Source: Bacteroidota bacterium (GTDB taxonomy: Bacteria; Bacteroidota; JABWAT01). From it: DNA of 64,000 nucleotides. Of this stretch, positions 52,265 to 62,953 are shown piece by piece. The notes under the pieces are model-generated. The model did no database searches. It worked only from the letters and a program-made list of their open reading frames with translations, and was not told where the DNA came from. Location: contig JAKLJL010000002.1 in NCBI GenBank assembly GCA_023151185.1, positions 383,058 to 447,057 of the forward strand, written 5' to 3'. Numbering within the stretch: position 1 is the stretch's first letter; every line of letters starts with the position of its first letter. Both the position numbers and the translations under genes were made by a program.

Positions 52265-52735
52265 CTAATTCCCTTTTCTGTTTTCCCGTCGTTTTTCGAT
52301 CATTTTCGCCAGATCCTTCAGAAACTCTGTTTCGAAAATGACCAGTTCAGCCCGTTGCTGAACAGTTAGTACAGGTTCAGTGGATTTCAGAAATTCCTTC
52401 CTTCGGGTCACCATTTTTTGTTCAATTTCCTCAATCTGGGCAAGTTTATCCGTGATTTTGGATTCACTCCAGGAATTGAGGTTATCTTTCAGCTCATTCA
52501 GGATTTTTTTCCGTTCCGTTCTGAGTGCTTCCATATCGTCAGAATGTCGGTTGTAAATGGCAAAAAACCTGGCGCTTTGCTCTTCGGTCAGATTCAGTTT
52601 ATCTGTCAGTTTCCAGATCCTGATCTGTTTTACCTTTTCACGTTGTTTCTCCGGAATAATATCATCCTGAGCAACTGCCGGCCCACCGGTAAGAAAAAGG
52701 AGTATTACGGCTATGACTACCTGTCGTGCTGACAT
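52265..52735 (-). CDS. Spy/CpxP-like periplasmic protein
   Basis: The 156-residue protein has a signal peptide ending ...TGGPAVA-QDD and is then mostly helical and charged (LTEEQSARFFAIYNRHSDDM; LRTERKKILNELKDNL; repeated RRKEFLKSTEPVL). This resembles Spy/CpxP-type periplasmic chaperones or heavy-metal-resistance-like proteins. It is 2 nt after the anti-sigma gene, so it is probably a target or accessory of the ECF system. No histidine/metal cluster is obvious. Confidence 0.75.
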   Translation of the reverse strand: MSARQVVIAVILLFLTGGPAVAQDDIIPEKQREKVKQIRIWKLTDKLNLTEEQSARFFAIYNRHSDDMEALRTERKKILNELKDNLNSWSESKITDKLAQIEEIEQKMVTRRKEFLKSTEPVLTVQQRAELVIFETEFLKDLAKMIEKRRENRKGN

Positions 52736-52737
52736 GG

Positions 52738-53277
52738 TTAACTTCCCGTCCTTTCTTTTTGAATATCCTGAAAATACGTTTCAATTTCCTGTTCAGACAA
52801 TTCGGGAATCCCGTCAGAAGTGAGTTCATCTGCCCCGGTCAACCTGGTTATTTCATCCAGTTCATCATCTGTAACAGAGTAAACAGCCATGACATCGTCT
52901 TCTTCAATCAGGTCATGGCTGGCGGGTAAAATCTGTGAAACTGCGATATCCGGAATATCCGGCCCGGCTGAACTCATGAACCGGAACAGGATTGTAGAAC
53001 CGGCAAGGACAAGAACCGAGGCGGCTACGGCATACCTGATTTTTCCTCCGGATACCCCCCTGTTAACTCTCTTCCCCGAGACCCGGATCAGAATTCTGTC
53101 TTCAAGCTGTTCAAAATACCTTTTTTCCTCTGCTGACTCCATTTCCTGCCGGATCATGCGGGGCAGGTCTGAGTTTTTTTCGAATTCGGCCAGGCAATCT
53201 GGGCACCCCGGAAGGTGTTCCCTAAAAAAACCGGGATTCCCGGCAGATTTATCACCAGAATAATTACAGGTCTTCAT
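52738..53277 (-). CDS. Anti-sigma factor with zinc-finger (ZAS-type) motif
   Basis: The 179-residue single-span membrane protein has an N-terminal HLPGCPDC (H-x3-C-x2-C) typical of anti-sigma ZAS domains, a transmembrane segment (YAVAASVLVLAGSTILFRF, about residues 82-100) and an acidic periplasmic tail. It likely holds the ECF sigma factor inactive until an envelope signal is sensed. It overlaps the sigma gene by 14 bp and precedes the Spy-like gene. Confidence 0.83.
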   Translation of the reverse strand: MKTCNYSGDKSAGNPGFFREHLPGCPDCLAEFEKNSDLPRMIRQEMESAEEKRYFEQLEDRILIRVSGKRVNRGVSGGKIRYAVAASVLVLAGSTILFRFMSSAGPDIPDIAVSQILPASHDLIEEDDVMAVYSVTDDELDEITRLTGADELTSDGIPELSEQEIETYFQDIQKERTGS

Positions 53278-53875
53278 TTTTCATCAGCTCCTTAACCTTT
53301 GCAACGGCGTGGAAGTAATTAGCCTTCAGTCCGCCAACCGATGTTCCAAGCACATCTGCAATTTCCTCATACGATAATTCATCATGATACCGCATGTTAA
53401 AAACAAGTCTTTGCTTCCCCGGAAGGGTTTCAATTGCCTTCTGAAGTTTTTGCTCCCATTCAGACCTGATCAGAATTTCTCCGGCATCCGGTAGATCCGT
53501 TGCCCGGAACTGAAGAACGTTTTCCAGGCCCACCCAGCTTCTGACTTTTTGCGCCCTGAGAAATTGCAGAACCTGGTTGGAGACAATCCGGTAAAGCCAG
53601 GTGTAGAATCTGGAATCTTCTCTGAATAAATGCAATTTTTCATGCAGGGTGATAAAAACCTGCTGGGTTATTTCATCCGCGTCATAATGGTCAAAAACCG
53701 TTCTCCTGACAAGCCAGTAAACCCGTTTCTGATACTTCCGCATCAGGCGGCCAAATGAAGTTTCCGACCTTTCCCGTACTATTTCCCGTATCAGAAGTAA
53801 ATCTTCTGCATCAGAAGAGAGTTCCGGCTGACCCGGGTTTGTAGACAGAGTTGCTCCTTGTCTTGCTGATATCAT
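53264..53875 (-). CDS. ECF RNA-polymerase sigma factor
   Basis: The 203-residue protein has region 2 (FGRLMRKYQKRVYWLVRRTV; DADEITQQVFITLHEKL) and region 4 (LPGKQRLVFNMRYHDELSYEEIADVL with GTSVGGLKANYFHA). It recognises envelope-stress-type promoters. The anti-sigma gene overlaps its end. A possible self-recognised promoter (TAAACC then CGTATC) lies just upstream. Confidence 0.92.
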   Translation of the reverse strand: MISARQGATLSTNPGQPELSSDAEDLLLIREIVRERSETSFGRLMRKYQKRVYWLVRRTVFDHYDADEITQQVFITLHEKLHLFREDSRFYTWLYRIVSNQVLQFLRAQKVRSWVGLENVLQFRATDLPDAGEILIRSEWEQKLQKAIETLPGKQRLVFNMRYHDELSYEEIADVLGTSVGGLKANYFHAVAKVKELMKNEDL

Positions 53876-55465: not shown

Positions 55466-56032
55466 TCACGGACGCTTTATTTTACTGAACAAGGCATATC
55501 GGGTGGCATCTGCATCACCCAGAGCTGAACGAAAAGTCAGATAATGCTGCACTTCAACCGGATAAATATCTGCAAGTGCTTTTCTGGCTTCAGTTGTTGA
55601 AAGAATTGATTCAAACATGTGTTTGAAATAGGCATCACCTGCTTCAAACTCAAGAGTTGCAGCCAGGTTCAGAACAGAAAGTTCATCGGTAACCGACCCA
55701 ACCCGGGGGTCTGCAGATTCAGTTGCATATTCAACCGCTGATCCCCCGATTGATTTCAAAACGTCATTGATGGTGTTGGCATGGGTAACGTGAGAATCCC
55801 GGAATGCCAAAGCGATGGTTACATAGGCTGGTGTGGAAATCAAGGCAGCAGCGGCATTGTAGCTGGCGACAGCAATTCCTTCCATTTTCACAACTTTCTG
55901 CAAAACAGCAATATCATTCCCCTTTATCGCCCCGGTTGCAGAGTCTGTATCGGTAATATCGCAGCCAGTTAAAACCAGGGGAAACCCGGCAGTAATAAGA
56001 CCAGCATTTTTTAAAAATTCCCGTCTGTCCAT
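55466..56032 (-). CDS. Ferritin-like domain protein, Tat/lipoprotein signal
   Basis: The start is ATG 56032 with GGAGG 5 nt upstream. The 188-residue product has a twin-arginine RREFLK followed by a hydrophobic stretch and lipobox LTGC (Cys24), so it is probably exported folded and lipid-anchored. The rest is a four-helix ferritin-like bundle (VVKMEGIAVASYNAAAAL; SHVTHANTINDVL; AATLEFEAGDAYFKHM; PVEVQHYLTF), with Glu/His positions that fit a di-metal site. Last gene of the cupredoxin-cyclase-barrel operon. Exact activity unknown. Confidence 0.8.
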   Translation of the reverse strand: MDRREFLKNAGLITAGFPLVLTGCDITDTDSATGAIKGNDIAVLQKVVKMEGIAVASYNAAAALISTPAYVTIALAFRDSHVTHANTINDVLKSIGGSAVEYATESADPRVGSVTDELSVLNLAATLEFEAGDAYFKHMFESILSTTEARKALADIYPVEVQHYLTFRSALGDADATRYALFSKIKRP

Positions 56033-56045
56033 CAAGTCCTCCAAA

Positions 56046-57218
56046 CTAAAAATTGACTGAAATCAAAAGTGCCAAACCATCTTCCTTCAAATCAAGTGAA
56101 CCTGAATTGGTTTGGGAAAATCCGGTTAGTTTAGCAAGAACACCTTTTTGCCAGGTGTAGCCCACTGAACCGGTGTACCGGTCCCTGTCAAGATCCCAGG
56201 CGGCAGAATCCACCGGATCGAACCAAACCCGGTCAAACCGGCCGGCAAAAAACAAACCGGGCAGGTACGGAATGTCAATTTTAACATCTGCATAAAATCC
56301 CTGGTTTGTAAGGTCAAAGGAAGCAAATTCGGCAGTTCCGGGTACTTTTACAAAGGCGCCTGAAGCAAACTTTGGTGTGGTCCATTTTGAGTACATATAT
56401 TCCCCGGAAAACTCAAAATAACCATAGGCGAGCACAATATCGGTTCCGAGTGCAGTTTGTTTGTATTTCTGAACATCTCCCAGAACCTGATTCTCACCTG
56501 TTTTTTCCATGAAGGATCCAAAACTGCCCGACACACCGACTGTGGCCCACATGGCAGGGTGGAATCCGATTCGTCCGATTCCGGAAATGGTTCCGTTGTT
56601 TTTTACTTCACTTCCCAGTGAAACCGGGGTGTTGGAAAGCATGATTTCCAGATCAATAATCTCATCCCAGGAATAATATCCTTTCAGGCCCATCTGGTAT
56701 CCGCCGGAAAATGCGGTAGAAAGTCCCACGTCATCAGTCCCATAGGATCCCAGATCTCCGGCTTTCGGCCAGAATCCTCTGAGAGTGCTGATGTTGATGA
56801 AATTTCCGTAAATCAGGGGCGGAAGGAAAGAGATGTTTTCGGTTGAATGCTGTCTTTTGGGGTAGAGTCCGAACGGAGACAGGACTTTCCCGGCTGAAAA
56901 ACCGAACGTCTCGCCTGCAGGATCATAATTGACACTGGCGAAGGCAATCTTTGGCTGACTGTCAAATCCATACTGGGCAGGAGAGTACAAAAACTTTCCC
57001 GAAAAGGAGAAATCATCCGAAATCTGCCCGCCAAAGAAAAGGTGAAGGTTCATTAAACTGAAATTGGGATACCGGTTGGCTATCCCGTTGGATGTAAATT
57101 TAGAGTCGGGTCCACCCATTGTAAACCCGGCATCAGCCAGCCCGCTCCACTCTACCTGACCAATTGCGGTTCCGGAAATAAAAAGACCAAAAACCAACCC
57201 TGCTGCCCGAATCGTCAT
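56046..57218 (-). CDS. Outer-membrane porin-like beta-barrel
   Basis: The 390-residue protein has a signal peptide ending ...GTAIG-QVEW and long alternating strands (FSFSGKFLYSPAQYGF; FGFSAGKVLSPFGLYP; GFYADVKIDIPYLPG) ending LISVNF with a C-terminal phenylalanine. The pattern matches phosphate-selective or DcaP-like porins. It overlaps the cyclase gene by 4 bp and is followed by the ferritin-like gene after 13 nt. It may admit the ligand sensed or stored by its neighbours, an inference. Confidence 0.78.
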   Translation of the reverse strand: MTIRAAGLVFGLFISGTAIGQVEWSGLADAGFTMGGPDSKFTSNGIANRYPNFSLMNLHLFFGGQISDDFSFSGKFLYSPAQYGFDSQPKIAFASVNYDPAGETFGFSAGKVLSPFGLYPKRQHSTENISFLPPLIYGNFINISTLRGFWPKAGDLGSYGTDDVGLSTAFSGGYQMGLKGYYSWDEIIDLEIMLSNTPVSLGSEVKNNGTISGIGRIGFHPAMWATVGVSGSFGSFMEKTGENQVLGDVQKYKQTALGTDIVLAYGYFEFSGEYMYSKWTTPKFASGAFVKVPGTAEFASFDLTNQGFYADVKIDIPYLPGLFFAGRFDRVWFDPVDSAAWDLDRDRYTGSVGYTWQKGVLAKLTGFSQTNSGSLDLKEDGLALLISVNF

Positions 57219-58924
57219 GTTAAAACCTCATAAACCTGAATTGCTTCACTGAATCCTTTAAACTGAACCGGTTCCAGGGAGTTGATCCGGAAAGTTTCCG
57301 GCAGATGTTTTTTTGTAGAGTCTGTAATCAGAATCTGGCCGGGTTTCGCTGCACTGCACAACCTCGCACCCAGATTCACATTGGCCCCGATTACTGTATA
57401 GTCAAGCCGGTTGGAACTTCCCATATTGCCCAGAACAACCTGTCCGGTGTTGATTCCAATCCCGATTCCGATAGGTTTTTCGTTGTTTTGATTGAGCTCC
57501 CTGGTTTTTCTGACTATTTCTGCAGCGCAGGAAACTGCCCGGTTTTCCTGACCGTCATTCAGGAAAATAGCCACCATTTCATCCCCGACAAATTTATCGA
57601 CCGAACCTTTGTACTTTTCAACAAGTTCAGCCTGAACACTGAGATATTGATTGAGCATTCCGATGACTTCTTCCGGAGTGATTTTCTCGGAATAGGCAGT
57701 AAACCCGCGGATGTCGCTGAACAGAACCGTGACCTCTACCCGTTGGCCAACAAAATCGGCCTCGGTCGTACTGGTTTGACCGATCATTTCTTTCGTGTGG
57801 CTGCCAACATATCTCAGAAGGTGAAACCGTTCCTTCAGTCCAACCGCCATTTCGTTAAAAGCAGTTGTCAGAACGCCCAACTCATCCCGGGTACTTACGG
57901 GAATGCTGATGTCATAATTTCCTGTTTTGATCCGGTCTACCCCGGCAGAAAGAGCTTTAATCGGACGGGTAATCGAGGTCCCCAGAAAAATTGTGACCAG
58001 AACGGCCAGCAAAAGGCTTATTCCGCCCGTCACCAGAATAAACCGCTCAATATTCCGGATGACTGCAAGCTGGGTTTGGTGCGGACTTGAAAGCACATAA
58101 AAGGCATGCGCCCCTTTTCCTATTGGGGCTGCGACATTAAAAAATTTATCCGACGTCAGGGAAAGATCAAAAACGGATATGGATTCCATGGTTGAGTCGA
58201 CTGATCTCATCCAGTCCCTGTTTTTTAAAATCTGGTCCATCATCAGGAATTGGTCCCCTTTCCTGAGAGTCGAGGCAATCAGGACGGTATCGTTCAAAAA
58301 GCTAACATCAAAACCGGTAATATATTTCAGGGTATCCGCTTCTCGCTGCCCGATGATCGTTCCAAGGGTCAGAGTTCCGACAACCGATTGGTAATTGTCA
58401 GTCAGGGCCGGAACCGAGACCACCTGGTATAGTTTTTCACTAAACCAAAGGTCAATAAAATCTGGATTCAGTTCCGGGTCTGATCCGGTCAGGGATTTTG
58501 CAATAAACGGCAAATGAGATAAGGTATCCCCATACCGTCCCGGATCCATTAAGCTTGACAGAAGAAGTCCATTTTTATCAGTGACCATGACCAGATCTGC
58601 CTTAACAGAGTTCGAAAGGTCACTTACCGTCACGGCAACCGTGTTGCTTACATCCGCCAGACGGTTTTTAGGATCATTGACAAGCGAAATGGTTTCCTTC
58701 AGAACCGGTTGATCCGATAAAATCAGGGAAGATTCCACCAAACGGTCATAATTTTGTTTTTGAATAACCTCAAAAGTCGCCTGGGACTTTTTAAAATCGG
58801 ATCGCACCTTACCGATAATTTCAGACTCAACCGTCCGGGTAATGATAAGCAGAACACCTGCAAGCAAAACACCAATCACCAGAAGGATCAGCAGGATCAG
58901 TTTGACCTGAATTTTTGAGAACAT
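57215..58924 (-). CDS. Membrane-bound class III adenylate cyclase with extracytoplasmic sensor and HAMP
   Basis: The 569-residue protein has a membrane helix (about 7-29), a Cache-like extracytoplasmic region (about 30-295), a second helix (about 296-318), a HAMP linker (TSITRPIKALSAGVDRIKTG) and a class III cyclase domain with metal aspartates in LFSDIRGFTAYSE and KFVGDEMVAIF. The substrate-selecting Lys (VDKFVGD) and Asp (LDYTVIG) point to ATP, hence cAMP. It lies 3 nt after the cupredoxin gene and overlaps the barrel gene. A CRP-type site precedes the operon. Confidence 0.93.
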   Translation of the reverse strand: MFSKIQVKLILLILLVIGVLLAGVLLIITRTVESEIIGKVRSDFKKSQATFEVIQKQNYDRLVESSLILSDQPVLKETISLVNDPKNRLADVSNTVAVTVSDLSNSVKADLVMVTDKNGLLLSSLMDPGRYGDTLSHLPFIAKSLTGSDPELNPDFIDLWFSEKLYQVVSVPALTDNYQSVVGTLTLGTIIGQREADTLKYITGFDVSFLNDTVLIASTLRKGDQFLMMDQILKNRDWMRSVDSTMESISVFDLSLTSDKFFNVAAPIGKGAHAFYVLSSPHQTQLAVIRNIERFILVTGGISLLLAVLVTIFLGTSITRPIKALSAGVDRIKTGNYDISIPVSTRDELGVLTTAFNEMAVGLKERFHLLRYVGSHTKEMIGQTSTTEADFVGQRVEVTVLFSDIRGFTAYSEKITPEEVIGMLNQYLSVQAELVEKYKGSVDKFVGDEMVAIFLNDGQENRAVSCAAEIVRKTRELNQNNEKPIGIGIGINTGQVVLGNMGSSNRLDYTVIGANVNLGARLCSAAKPGQILITDSTKKHLPETFRINSLEPVQFKGFSEAIQVYEVLT

Positions 58925-58927
58925 AGA

Positions 58928-59617
58928 TTACCTGAGGGTGAGTTTAATTTTGTTGATGCTGCCGCTTTTTACTGAGATTTTCAGGGGCTCGACCGAATGA
59001 TCCGGGTGAAAAACTTCGACCAGATATCTTCCGTCGGGAAGGTCCCTGAAGGAAAACTTTCCGTCGTCATCCGGTTTGGTTATGTAAGGGGTGTTCAAAA
59101 CCAGAATGTGGCTCGACATATTCGAGTGGATATTGCAGAAAACCTGAATCAGTCCGGGTTTGTTAAAAACCTGGTAGACATTCTCACCGGTTATCCGTTT
59201 TCCTATATTGAAACTCTGAACCTGGCTTTTGCTGAATACATTGTGGTAGATTCTGTCCTCATTCACAATCAGGACAGACGTGCCGGTTGTAATCGCAAGA
59301 ACTCTGGGATTAAAGGTGACATCTTTCTGGACCAGCCTCGGGAAAGGGGTTAATGGAGCCACCGGTGGCGTGAAATCCAGCGGAGTCAGGTAAACCACAA
59401 CATCCTGCATGGGGTCGGCCGAAATAACGGCACCCGGGGTTTTTTTGTTTTGGTACCGGCTGCGGTAAACACTGCCTCTCGACCTGACATTTACCTGAGC
59501 CTGCCCGGCGGATATTTCAATCTCACCTGAAACCTGCCCGGTCCCTGCCGGCTGAGAGATTGCCAAACCGGCGCCACAAAAAAGTATCAGAAAAAACAAA
59601 CCCGCAGATCTTTGCAT
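58928..59617 (-). CDS. Exported cupredoxin-like protein (plastocyanin/azurin type) with carboxypeptidase-regulatory-like tail
   Basis: The 229-residue protein has a signal peptide and a copper-site-like pattern: NEDRIYHNVFS supplies a histidine, then QVFCNIHSNMSSHILV gives Cys, His and Met in the spacing typical of type I copper proteins, after a beta-sandwich (DVTFNPRVLAITTGTSVLIV). The last ~60 residues (FRDLPDGRYLVEVFHPDH) are a carboxypeptidase-regulatory-like domain. It is probably a periplasmic electron carrier or copper sensor. First gene of the operon with the cyclase. Confidence 0.85.
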   Translation of the reverse strand: MQRSAGLFFLILFCGAGLAISQPAGTGQVSGEIEISAGQAQVNVRSRGSVYRSRYQNKKTPGAVISADPMQDVVVYLTPLDFTPPVAPLTPFPRLVQKDVTFNPRVLAITTGTSVLIVNEDRIYHNVFSKSQVQSFNIGKRITGENVYQVFNKPGLIQVFCNIHSNMSSHILVLNTPYITKPDDDGKFSFRDLPDGRYLVEVFHPDHSVEPLKISVKSGSINKIKLTLR

Positions 59618-59638
59618 ATTACCTCTGAAACTGAGGTG

Positions 59639-59684
59639 TAAAGATACTCTTATTTTTATCTGGTCTAATGTGGCTTAGGTCACA
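59639..59684 (-). promoter_or_regulatory. CRP-type operator and promoter before cupredoxin-cyclase operon
   Basis: TGTGG-CTTAGG-TCACA at 59669-59684 matches the CRP/FNR-family palindrome TGTGA-N6-TCACA with one mismatch. On the minus strand it abuts a weak -35 (ATTAGA, 59669-59664), and a TATCTTTA -7 element (59646-59639) is 17 bp further. The palindrome centre would then sit near -42, the class II activator position. The start codon is at 59617. Confidence 0.6.
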
Positions 59685-59687
59685 CCC

Positions 59688-60698
59688 TTAGTAAATAATG
59701 ACGTTTTCTCTGGCTTTATCGGTTAGCAGTGAGAATTGCTCTTTCAGACGGGCAAGTTCTACCTTTTTACGCCTGACACGCATTTCCAGGTCAGTAACGA
59801 CTCCATGAAAATAATCGTCGGGTGAGGGCACATACGATTGAACTTTTAAAAATAAAGCATAGGTATCAGAGGACCGCAATTCCTGGATCCGTTTGGAAAT
59901 GGATTCGAGCAGGCCGGAAAGTTTGGTTTCTTCGGTTTTCAGCCGGCTTAGTTTTTCATTCAGAGATTCACCGACAAGTTCATACTCAATAAGCATCTGG
60001 GCTTTTGCCTCGATTTTTTTCAGTGAGTCGAGATTGGCGTGATGATAGGCTTCGTTGATTTCTTTCATCACGTCTTCAAAATAAGCTTTTTCCTCTTCAG
60101 TTCTGGCTTTGTCGGGGTGGTAAATCTTTGCAAGGTCCCGGTAGAGATTCCGCAATTCCCGTTTTTGATCATCCGACAGGTCCCGGCTCCTGAAAACGAA
60201 ATCCTTCAGTGCCTTTTCATCTTCATGCAATTGGTTTTCGTCTGATTCCAACTGCTTCCTGAATCCTGAAAGTTCCTTTTCAAGGCTTTCGTCATCCCAG
60301 GGCTTCCCGGAATGAAACCGTTCAAATTTCAGCCTCATCAGATTCAATGCATACTCTGCCTGATCAAGCTGAATGAAATACCGGCCAACCCGGGCATTAT
60401 ATTCAGTCTGGAATTTTCCAAGCTCTGTTTCAAGATCATCGAGTTCAAGGTAAAGATCACCTGCCCGGTTCCTCAGATCCAGTACAATACCTCTCAACCG
60501 TTCAATTTCAATTTCATCCGGACTTTTAACACGGGTAATTTTTTTACCTGCATATTTTCTGAGCGCTTCTGCCCGGATCTCATTCAGGACTTCGAAGGCC
60601 TTTTCGAAAGCCTCGGAGGATTTTTTAAACTCATGCTGCTCGGCATAAACGATCGCCTGATTATACCAGGCTGTAAAAATTTCATACAGGTTATTCAT
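59688..60698 (-). CDS. J-domain protein with long coiled coils
   Basis: The 336-residue protein has long charged coiled-coil arms at both ends (AYNQAIVYAEQHEFKKSSEAF; EIERLRGIVLDLRNRAG; KLSRLKTEETKLSGLLES) and a central J-domain: LRNLYRDLAKIYHPDKARTEEE, with the HPD tripeptide that stimulates Hsp70 ATPase. It probably recruits DnaK to a client, perhaps the WD40 protein encoded just upstream, whose stop shares one base with this start. No DnaK gene is in the window. Confidence 0.82.
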   Translation of the reverse strand: MNNLYEIFTAWYNQAIVYAEQHEFKKSSEAFEKAFEVLNEIRAEALRKYAGKKITRVKSPDEIEIERLRGIVLDLRNRAGDLYLELDDLETELGKFQTEYNARVGRYFIQLDQAEYALNLMRLKFERFHSGKPWDDESLEKELSGFRKQLESDENQLHEDEKALKDFVFRSRDLSDDQKRELRNLYRDLAKIYHPDKARTEEEKAYFEDVMKEINEAYHHANLDSLKKIEAKAQMLIEYELVGESLNEKLSRLKTEETKLSGLLESISKRIQELRSSDTYALFLKVQSYVPSPDDYFHGVVTDLEMRVRRKKVELARLKEQFSLLTDKARENVIIY

Positions 60699-62953
60699 CA
60701 GAATGATATCCTTAATTCTTCATGAATGTTCCAGATTCTCAGTTCACCGCCAAATCCGTTCATCAGATAAAGGCCATCCGCCGAAATCCTGACATTTGCC
60801 CCGCCTTTAATGGTTGCAAGCAGGGTCTGATCCGAAAGTCCCCAGATTTTGGTCAGATTATCCAGACCGCCGGAGACAACCAGTTTGTTTTTCGGATGAA
60901 AGACAACCGACGTAATGGTTTGTTCATGTGAACCAATCAGCCCAAGCGAATTCCCGGTTACAGTTGCCCAGATGTACAGTTCATTCCGGATTGCAGTAGC
61001 AATGACCAGACCGTCCTCAGAAATAGAAAAGGCAGTGACTTTCTGATGCGGATTGTTGATCGACCACAACAACCGGCCACTTCCGAAATCCCAAACAGCA
61101 AACTGCCCGTTTTCTGCCCGGGCCAGGATAAAATGATTATCATCCGATATCCGGATTTCGGAGGCCATGGCCTCGAGACCTTTACAAACTTTATGAATGA
61201 CTCCGCCTGCGAGATTCCAGACCTTGAGGCTAAAATCAAGGCCGCAGGAAATCAAAAACTTACCGTCTGTACTCATTGAGGCAGACCGGATAATTTTGGT
61301 GTTTCCTTCGAAAGACTGAATAAACCGGTCAGAAGCTGTATCAAAAATCGAAAGCGTGTTTTCTCCTCTGATCAGAAGCAGACCTTCTTTTCCCTGATAG
61401 GTAACCTGTTTGATCCGGTCTTCACCCAGATGAATTTCCTGAAGAAAGGTAGCAGAATCTGCCTGCCAGAGCTGTATGGTCTTTTCGTCTGAGGGGAAGG
61501 CAATCTGGCTGCCATCGGGTTTGAAACTGATGGTTTTTGGCCAGATGTATCCGGTATCAAAACTGGACTCAACTTCTCCGGTAGTCAGATTCCAGATTTT
61601 GATCTTATTGTCGGTCCCGCCTACTGCCACCAGTTTTCTGAAGGGATGAAACTCGGACGCTTTCAGATAACCTTCCGGCATCAGGAAAATTGCATAGCAG
61701 GAACCGGTCCGGTAATCGTAAACTTTGATTGAATTATCCCACCCCCTGCAGGCAACATAGGGTTGAGCCGGGCTGAACGGGTCATTGAAAATCCAGTCGT
61801 CAGCCGAATAAAAATCGCAGATCAGTTGCCCTTTGGTCAGATCCCAAACCTTAACACGGTGATCTTTTGTGGAAGCCATTGCCAGTTGACCGGAGGCCGA
61901 AACTCCCATGTTGATGATATTATCAGCACTCCCCGGTTCTACGAGGGTCAATTGATGACCCACATCGATGATTCTGGCAACGTCTCCGTTCCGGATGGAG
62001 GCAATCAGTCGGTTTCCGGCCAGTGAATAGACAACTTTATCAATCCAGGAATTGTCATATTCATATTTCTTCTCAATTTCTCCAGTTTCCAGATTTCCGG
62101 TGAAAATGGTTTTAAGTTCACTGCCAATGGCAAATTCAGTTCCATCAGCCGAAAGGGCCAGTGTTTTGATATATGTTCTCGGTATTTCCTGTTTCCAGGC
62201 CAGAGTCCCGGTGTCAGCATGCCAACCGCATAGCCGGTTATCAGCACCATAACTGACCATCATGCTGCCGTTTCCGGAAACCTCCAGAAAATGGACCGCA
62301 CCTTCATGTGCCTGAATAACAGCCTGGCATTCACCTGTAACCGGGTGCCATAATTTCAGTGTGCCATGATGGCTGCCGGTTGCAAGAAACTTTCCGTTCC
62401 CCGCTGCCTTCAAAACTGAAATATCCTCTTCGTACCCGCCTACCAGAAGGGTGTCACCGCTTTCTATGCCGAGTATTTTAATCCGGCTCGAAGAAAGAAT
62501 AACCAGCGAGGCTGCGTCGGGTGTGAAAACAATATCACTCAAAAGGCTTTCACCGATTCTGAGCCCTTCCCTTACATAAATTTCCCGGGTGATGGTTTCA
62601 CTTAGAATAGCTCCTTTTTTCGCCTGCATGGTGATGATTTTACGACCGCCGGTCAGATACTTGTGATAAATTACCGGTTCGTTGAGAAAATCGGTCTGCC
62701 AGACCCCTGTATTATCAAAGTCATACCTGACCGAAACCGGAACGCCATCCTGATTGCTCAGAAAAAATGCTTTGGCATTAAAGGCAAATTCGGTATTGAT
62801 ATAGCCGGCTTCCGGAAACGGAAAGAAATCCAGATTTTTAAAATGAAGTAAAGTGTTGGAATGCTCCAGACCACGCTTCAGTGCCCGTCGTTCAGACTGG
62901 ATTTCAAACTTTCCGGTAAATTGCTGCGATGGTGTGGTTAACTGCTGACTCAT
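60698..62953 (-). CDS. WD40-repeat protein, large propeller pair
   Basis: The 751-residue protein has an N-terminal non-repeat part (about 150 residues) and then at least ten WD40-type blades, e.g. LATGSHHGTLKLWHPVTGE, MASTKDHRVKVWDLTKGQ, VGGTDNKIKIWNLTTGE and VSGGLDNLTKIWGLS. That would fill two seven-bladed propellers. No signal peptide: it is a cytoplasmic scaffold. GAGGAAAAT precedes ATG 62953. It is flanked by an Lrp regulator (11-nt gap) and the J-domain protein. WD40 proteins of this size are rarer in bacteria and their partners here are unknown. Confidence 0.85.
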   Translation of the reverse strand: MSQQLTTPSQQFTGKFEIQSERRALKRGLEHSNTLLHFKNLDFFPFPEAGYINTEFAFNAKAFFLSNQDGVPVSVRYDFDNTGVWQTDFLNEPVIYHKYLTGGRKIITMQAKKGAILSETITREIYVREGLRIGESLLSDIVFTPDAASLVILSSSRIKILGIESGDTLLVGGYEEDISVLKAAGNGKFLATGSHHGTLKLWHPVTGECQAVIQAHEGAVHFLEVSGNGSMMVSYGADNRLCGWHADTGTLAWKQEIPRTYIKTLALSADGTEFAIGSELKTIFTGNLETGEIEKKYEYDNSWIDKVVYSLAGNRLIASIRNGDVARIIDVGHQLTLVEPGSADNIINMGVSASGQLAMASTKDHRVKVWDLTKGQLICDFYSADDWIFNDPFSPAQPYVACRGWDNSIKVYDYRTGSCYAIFLMPEGYLKASEFHPFRKLVAVGGTDNKIKIWNLTTGEVESSFDTGYIWPKTISFKPDGSQIAFPSDEKTIQLWQADSATFLQEIHLGEDRIKQVTYQGKEGLLLIRGENTLSIFDTASDRFIQSFEGNTKIIRSASMSTDGKFLISCGLDFSLKVWNLAGGVIHKVCKGLEAMASEIRISDDNHFILARAENGQFAVWDFGSGRLLWSINNPHQKVTAFSISEDGLVIATAIRNELYIWATVTGNSLGLIGSHEQTITSVVFHPKNKLVVSGGLDNLTKIWGLSDQTLLATIKGGANVRISADGLYLMNGFGGELRIWNIHEELRISF

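Follow-up and report, generated by a model that had tools for sequence, protein, structure and literature searches.

Bacterial copper sensing is known to rely mostly on dedicated kinases or on cytoplasmic repressors. Among sensors that are read together with a periplasmic partner, LuxP has a sugar-binding-protein fold and binds AI-2, and the output of LuxQ is a histidine kinase. The YfiBNR system of Pseudomonas and the HmsCDE system of Yersinia each comprise an outer-membrane part, a soluble periplasmic part and an inner-membrane, HAMP-linked nucleotide cyclase, and their periplasmic part is held to sense the redox state (PMC4655355, PMC5550408). We analyzed a four-gene operon in a 64-kb stretch of DNA (the window) from a genome of 3.74 Mb. 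Four open reading frames lie on the minus strand in the order CUP, CYC, BAR and FER (Table 1), and their junctions are +3, -4 and +13 nt, as the preliminary description had reported. Guanylate_cyc, HAMP and Ferritin_2 domains of this operon score above the Pfam cut-offs. Genes for a WD40-repeat protein and a TPR/DnaJ-like protein are located upstream (59688-62953, minus strand) and, among the loci examined, keep this place only in the window's family. Just past gltX (52265-53875, minus strand), genes for an ECF sigma factor, a candidate anti-sigma factor and an LTXXQ/Metal_resist (Spy/CpxP-like) protein follow each other in a row that is found at the same position in L031-L033; this row is possibly a separate switch for envelope or metal stress.

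Table 1. Features of the operon and its upstream region in the window
Feature	Position	Strand	Description
CUP	58928..59617	-	Type-1 cupredoxin with export signal (H125, C161, H164, M167); seems to be inserted into a carboxypeptidase-regulatory/transthyretin-like domain
CYC	57215..58924	-	Membrane class IIIb adenylate cyclase, as predicted from Pfam, alignment and models
CYC domains			Periplasmic double-Cache, about residues 30-310; HAMP, 313-364; cyclase domain, 397-565
BAR	56046..57218	-	Predicted beta-barrel of the outer membrane; almost always accompanies CUP and CYC
FER	55466..56032	-	Tat-type lipoprotein of the Ferritin_2 family; accessory gene
CRP-like palindrome	59669..59684	.	Candidate site reading TGTGA-N6-CCACA on the minus strand (9/10 positions); exact TGTGA-N6-TCACA in two sister genomes
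TAnnTTTG-type promoter element	59639..59646	-	Candidate; TATCTTTA in the window, TATCTTTG in sister genomes; starts 30 nt from the palindrome centre

CUP carries an export signal and the His, Cys, His and Met ligand set of type-1 cupredoxins, with the loop spacing C-x2-H-x2-M as in amicyanin. The sequence scores under the Pfam cut-offs. According to the AlphaFold model (pLDDT 85), a check that the preliminary description had called for, CUP has a cupredoxin fold, and the top PDB matches are NirK cupredoxin domains, amicyanin and pseudoazurin. All four copper ligands are invariant in an alignment of 27 homologues from several phyla; loss of these ligands, which had been named beforehand as a refutation of the proposed coupling to cAMP, was never seen in the homologues aligned. 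While the exported cupredoxin itself was thus recognized correctly, what had been taken for a CarboxypepD-like tail probably forms the latter half of a domain that the cupredoxin interrupts. In relative L053 the parts flanking the cupredoxin match CarboxypepD_reg positions 1-22 and 33-81 when taken singly, and when joined they cover the family at full length, from position 1 to 81 of 82, with 46.1 bits. Joining the flanks of the window protein yielded 28.8 versus 23.7 bits, and since this gain is smaller than in L053, nesting in the window CUP is what we infer rather than observe. In public annotation, amicyanin and other type-1 cupredoxins go under the name 'methylamine utilization protein'. 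An identity as amicyanin (TIGR02657) with a role in methylamine utilisation was rejected: the score is 15.4 bits against a cut-off of 110.2, and methylamine dehydrogenase genes are absent among the annotated neighbours examined. CUP has the ligand loop and the predicted cupredoxin fold in common with amicyanin and other type-1 cupredoxins, whereas it differs from amicyanin in its apparent nesting in a second domain, its low score and its neighbourhood.

CYC had been described as a class III cyclase with a periplasmic sensor and HAMP, and this assignment was borne out. Its catalytic domain (PF00211) scores 90.5 bits versus a cut-off of 21.9, and residues D404, K444, D448, T510, N517 and R521 are invariant in an alignment of 17 relatives, supplying the two metal Asp, the Lys/Thr base pair and the transition-state Asn and Arg. 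The nearest solved relatives are adenylate cyclases of the CyaC/CyaB type, which resemble CYC in the catalytic domain and in Lys/Thr at the base-specifying positions; the input of CYC, by contrast, is a periplasmic double-Cache domain with HAMP. From the Lys/Thr pair, together with a CRP homologue, we infer that CYC makes cAMP rather than cGMP. In the window genome, class III cyclases number seven and cNMP-binding proteins 11. A model of the periplasmic domain (pLDDT 86) matches double-Cache sensors, among them DctB, Tlp3, TlpQ and LuxQ. The Pfam family dCache_3 is unlisted for the window CYC, and four of 17 orthologues match it at E <= 0.05, with which the modelled fold agrees. In the alignment of relatives the periplasmic part of the cyclase has no conserved His, Cys or Met, and direct copper binding by the Cache sensor was rejected on this ground.

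BAR is predicted to be an outer-membrane barrel because it combines a signal peptide with amphipathic strands and because the C-terminal residue is Phe in 16 of 17 relatives. This is in line with the porin-like barrel described before, though BAR has no Pfam match above cut-off, and a sequence search against solved structures returned no match. Haem in BAR was rejected, since it has no CxxCH, unlike the cytochrome-barrels of L049, L080 and L115. FER also conformed to its description as a Tat/lipoprotein ferritin-like protein: it scores 39.4 bits for Ferritin_2 (cut-off 24.7), its signal is Tat-like and is accompanied by a lipobox Cys, and the pattern E / HxxH / E / ExxH is conserved, with E51, H81, H84, E128, E160 and H163 as candidate di-metal ligands. 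Since the sensor offers no conserved His, Cys or Met and the mature barrel only one mostly conserved Met among such potential metal-binding residues, it is likely that metal is carried by CUP and FER.

A common set of 296 genomes from the window's phylum was searched with profiles of the sensor, the barrel and FER. CUP and BAR were found within 3 kb and on the same strand for 39 of the 41 sensors; the two others are located at a contig end (L125) or represent a weak kinase hit (L128). All 41 barrels adjoin a sensor, and all 35 genomes with BAR contain one. Five genomes carry two sensors each, and the second locus was a complete triad in all four cases read. A tree of 74 cupredoxins placed the cyclase-and-barrel-linked sequences of the phylum in one clade of 23 (SH-aLRT 96); the tree label 'AC' for L116 came from a weak profile hit, and Pfam shows a Ser/Thr kinase there. 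The gene set is conserved far above chance, and its core is the triad of CUP, Cache-HAMP-cyclase and BAR, with FER as an accessory. FER is present in 15 of the genomes, 14 of which also have the sensor (hypergeometric P about 1.6e-13, uncorrected for shared ancestry), and this patchy distribution led us to reject it as a core gene. Lack of co-occurrence in other genomes had been named beforehand as a refutation, but the families do co-occur, with 11 copies of FER beside a barrel. At one locus (L127:3730-6784) two barrel gene copies flank FER.

Conserved order could also reflect an inherited neighbourhood of co-transcribed genes with separate functions, as the WD40, DnaJ-like and gltX surroundings are likewise conserved in the window's family. 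Outside this family, however, the surrounding genes change while the triad is kept, its internal order shifts (with BAR in the lead in L041-L043) and the same association appears again in a second phylum. The comparative data thus disfavour this explanation, which we regard as very improbable.

Comparison of positions revealed that CUP adjoins 13 of 17 sensor hits in Acidobacteriota, where the output next to it is usually a histidine kinase and once a Ser/Thr kinase. In one acidobacterium a cytochrome P460-cupredoxin fusion (L054:11526-12317) directly follows a CUP-kinase pair. On plasmids of Caballeronia, Comamonas and Novosphingobium the gene after CUP encodes a GGDEF-EAL protein with HAMP, and this protein carries dCache_3 in Caballeronia and Novosphingobium, the two that were scanned. 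DUF3034 and group 1 truncated haemoglobin genes adjoin the CUP locus in the same two genera; at two proteobacterial loci (L057:3542-4896, L060:3318-4777) these genes lie beside a 'methylamine utilization protein' (or equivalent) and an EAL protein. The outputs paired with CUP and sensor are thus class III cyclase, histidine kinase, GGDEF-EAL (restricted to relatives from proteobacteria and some other groups) and Ser/Thr kinase. Retention of CUP across changes of output is what joint action of CUP and the sensor domain would lead one to expect. Another clade of the CUP family is located between genes for cytochrome c proteins and cytochrome oxidase genes (L092, L095, L098), and other cupredoxins of this superfamily have as neighbours genes for barrel-like proteins whose N-terminal part bears a CxxCH haem motif (L049:6261-7583, L080:7061-8359, L115:6546-7898). 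The latter are Cyc2-like in appearance. These contexts suggest that the ancestral role of CUP may have been plain electron transfer.

The near-constant company of the sensor also bears on a reading in which a small organic ligand or ion comes in via BAR and is sensed by the Cache domain, while CUP and FER form an electron-transfer or metal part without sensor contact; the operon would then encode a regulated pathway of uptake or oxidation. The best structural matches of the CYC sensor are indeed Cache domains that bind small molecules (DctB, Tlp3, TlpQ), two BAR relatives weakly match the siderophore porin LbtU, and in one family the triad comes after aldehyde-dehydrogenase-like genes (named by eye). 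However, CUP and BAR alone are constant partners, with no constant transporter, enzyme or binding protein beside them, and the same CUP is paired with several kinds of output. We consider such a pathway unlikely, but it is the alternative that we take most seriously.

The accessory genes allow a further interpretation, namely that a reactive gas or oxidant (NO, O2 or peroxide) is what the module detects, with accessory metalloproteins as the primary reactors and CUP carrying an electron to or from them. All lineage-specific accessories are candidates for such chemistry: Ferritin_2 in the window's operon, the truncated haemoglobin in Caballeronia and Novosphingobium, the P460-cupredoxin fusion in the acidobacterium and CxxCH barrel proteins elsewhere. 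They are patchy, though, with 11 FER copies adjoining a barrel versus 41 barrel genes, and gas or oxidant sensing of this kind appears quite unlikely to us.

A candidate CRP-like palindrome is located between the DnaJ-like gene and CUP, upstream of the operon. In the sister genomes its half-sites and spacing are kept while the spacer sequence has diverged, and a TATCTTT(G/A) element is found 30 nt downstream of the palindrome centre. TAnnTTTG is a promoter element of Bacteroidota, and class II refers to a position of CRP relative to the promoter. Exact TGTGA-N6-TCACA sites number only four and six genome-wide in the two sister genomes. Within the window, one-mismatch matches to the palindrome are not enriched, and because the site was picked out post hoc, its weight lies in position and conservation. 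In other families of the phylum the site is absent save for one 9/10 match, and it was therefore rejected as a phylum-wide feature. The cNMP-binding protein L129 is a CRP homologue whose recognition helix, RETISR, fits such a site (cassette GEMAVIDGFARSA), and it would presumably use the candidate site. Given the apparent class-II spacing and this homologue, cAMP feedback on the operon is plausible.

The preliminary description held that the operon couples periplasmic copper or redox state to cAMP. Coupling of a periplasmic metalloprotein to cAMP is still the best reading, with copper or redox as its presumed signal; the claim has to be corrected in that the core is a triad, other outputs occur besides the cyclase, and conserved metal ligands are missing from the sensor. 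We tentatively favour, with a confidence just short of even, a tripartite envelope-signalling system in which the cupredoxin is the periplasmic messenger. BAR would reside in the outer membrane, and what reaches the periplasm would set the loaded or redox state of CUP. CYC in the inner membrane would read CUP via its double-Cache domain, and a change in this sensor would pass through HAMP to the class IIIb cyclase and to cAMP. In the window's genus cAMP would then act through the CRP homologue, which would also bind upstream of the operon. FER, where present, would be a di-metal lipoprotein of the envelope and would probably serve to exchange electrons with the CUP site or to protect it. Contact between CUP and the sensor, copper or redox as the signal and the direction of the effect are assumptions of this scheme; double-Cache domains usually bind small organic ligands, so that CUP may act elsewhere.

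Taken more broadly, the data may point to an architecture that is widespread, occurring in three phyla or more, whose Cache-HAMP sensors have a dedicated blue-copper protein as their periplasmic messenger and whose outputs (cAMP, phosphorelay, c-di-GMP, Ser/Thr phosphorylation) are interchangeable. We regard this as possible, although its chances fall somewhat below even. No description of a cupredoxin with a cyclase, c-di-GMP or HAMP, or of DUF3034, was found in a literature search that left most subscription papers and preprints uncovered. If true, this would introduce a new type of metal or redox sensing at the envelope, with a cupredoxin as input of a second-messenger enzyme, and many proteins now labelled 'methylamine utilization protein' would gain a function. 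The model is open to direct testing, having few parts and an output, cAMP, that is easily measured.

Among the known systems, LuxP-LuxQ resembles the proposed one in that a double-Cache sensor, itself among the top structural matches of the CYC sensor, is read with a periplasmic partner; here the partner is a cupredoxin and the output a class III cyclase. In the window operon we encountered neither a YfiR-like periplasmic protein nor a GGDEF diguanylate cyclase output. Compared with YfiBNR and HmsCDE, a cupredoxin takes the place of YfiR, a barrel that of the OmpA-like lipoprotein, and a double-Cache domain with a class III adenylate cyclase that of PAS and GGDEF. What the operon would have in common with them, as we propose, is a three-compartment relay to an inner-membrane cyclase.
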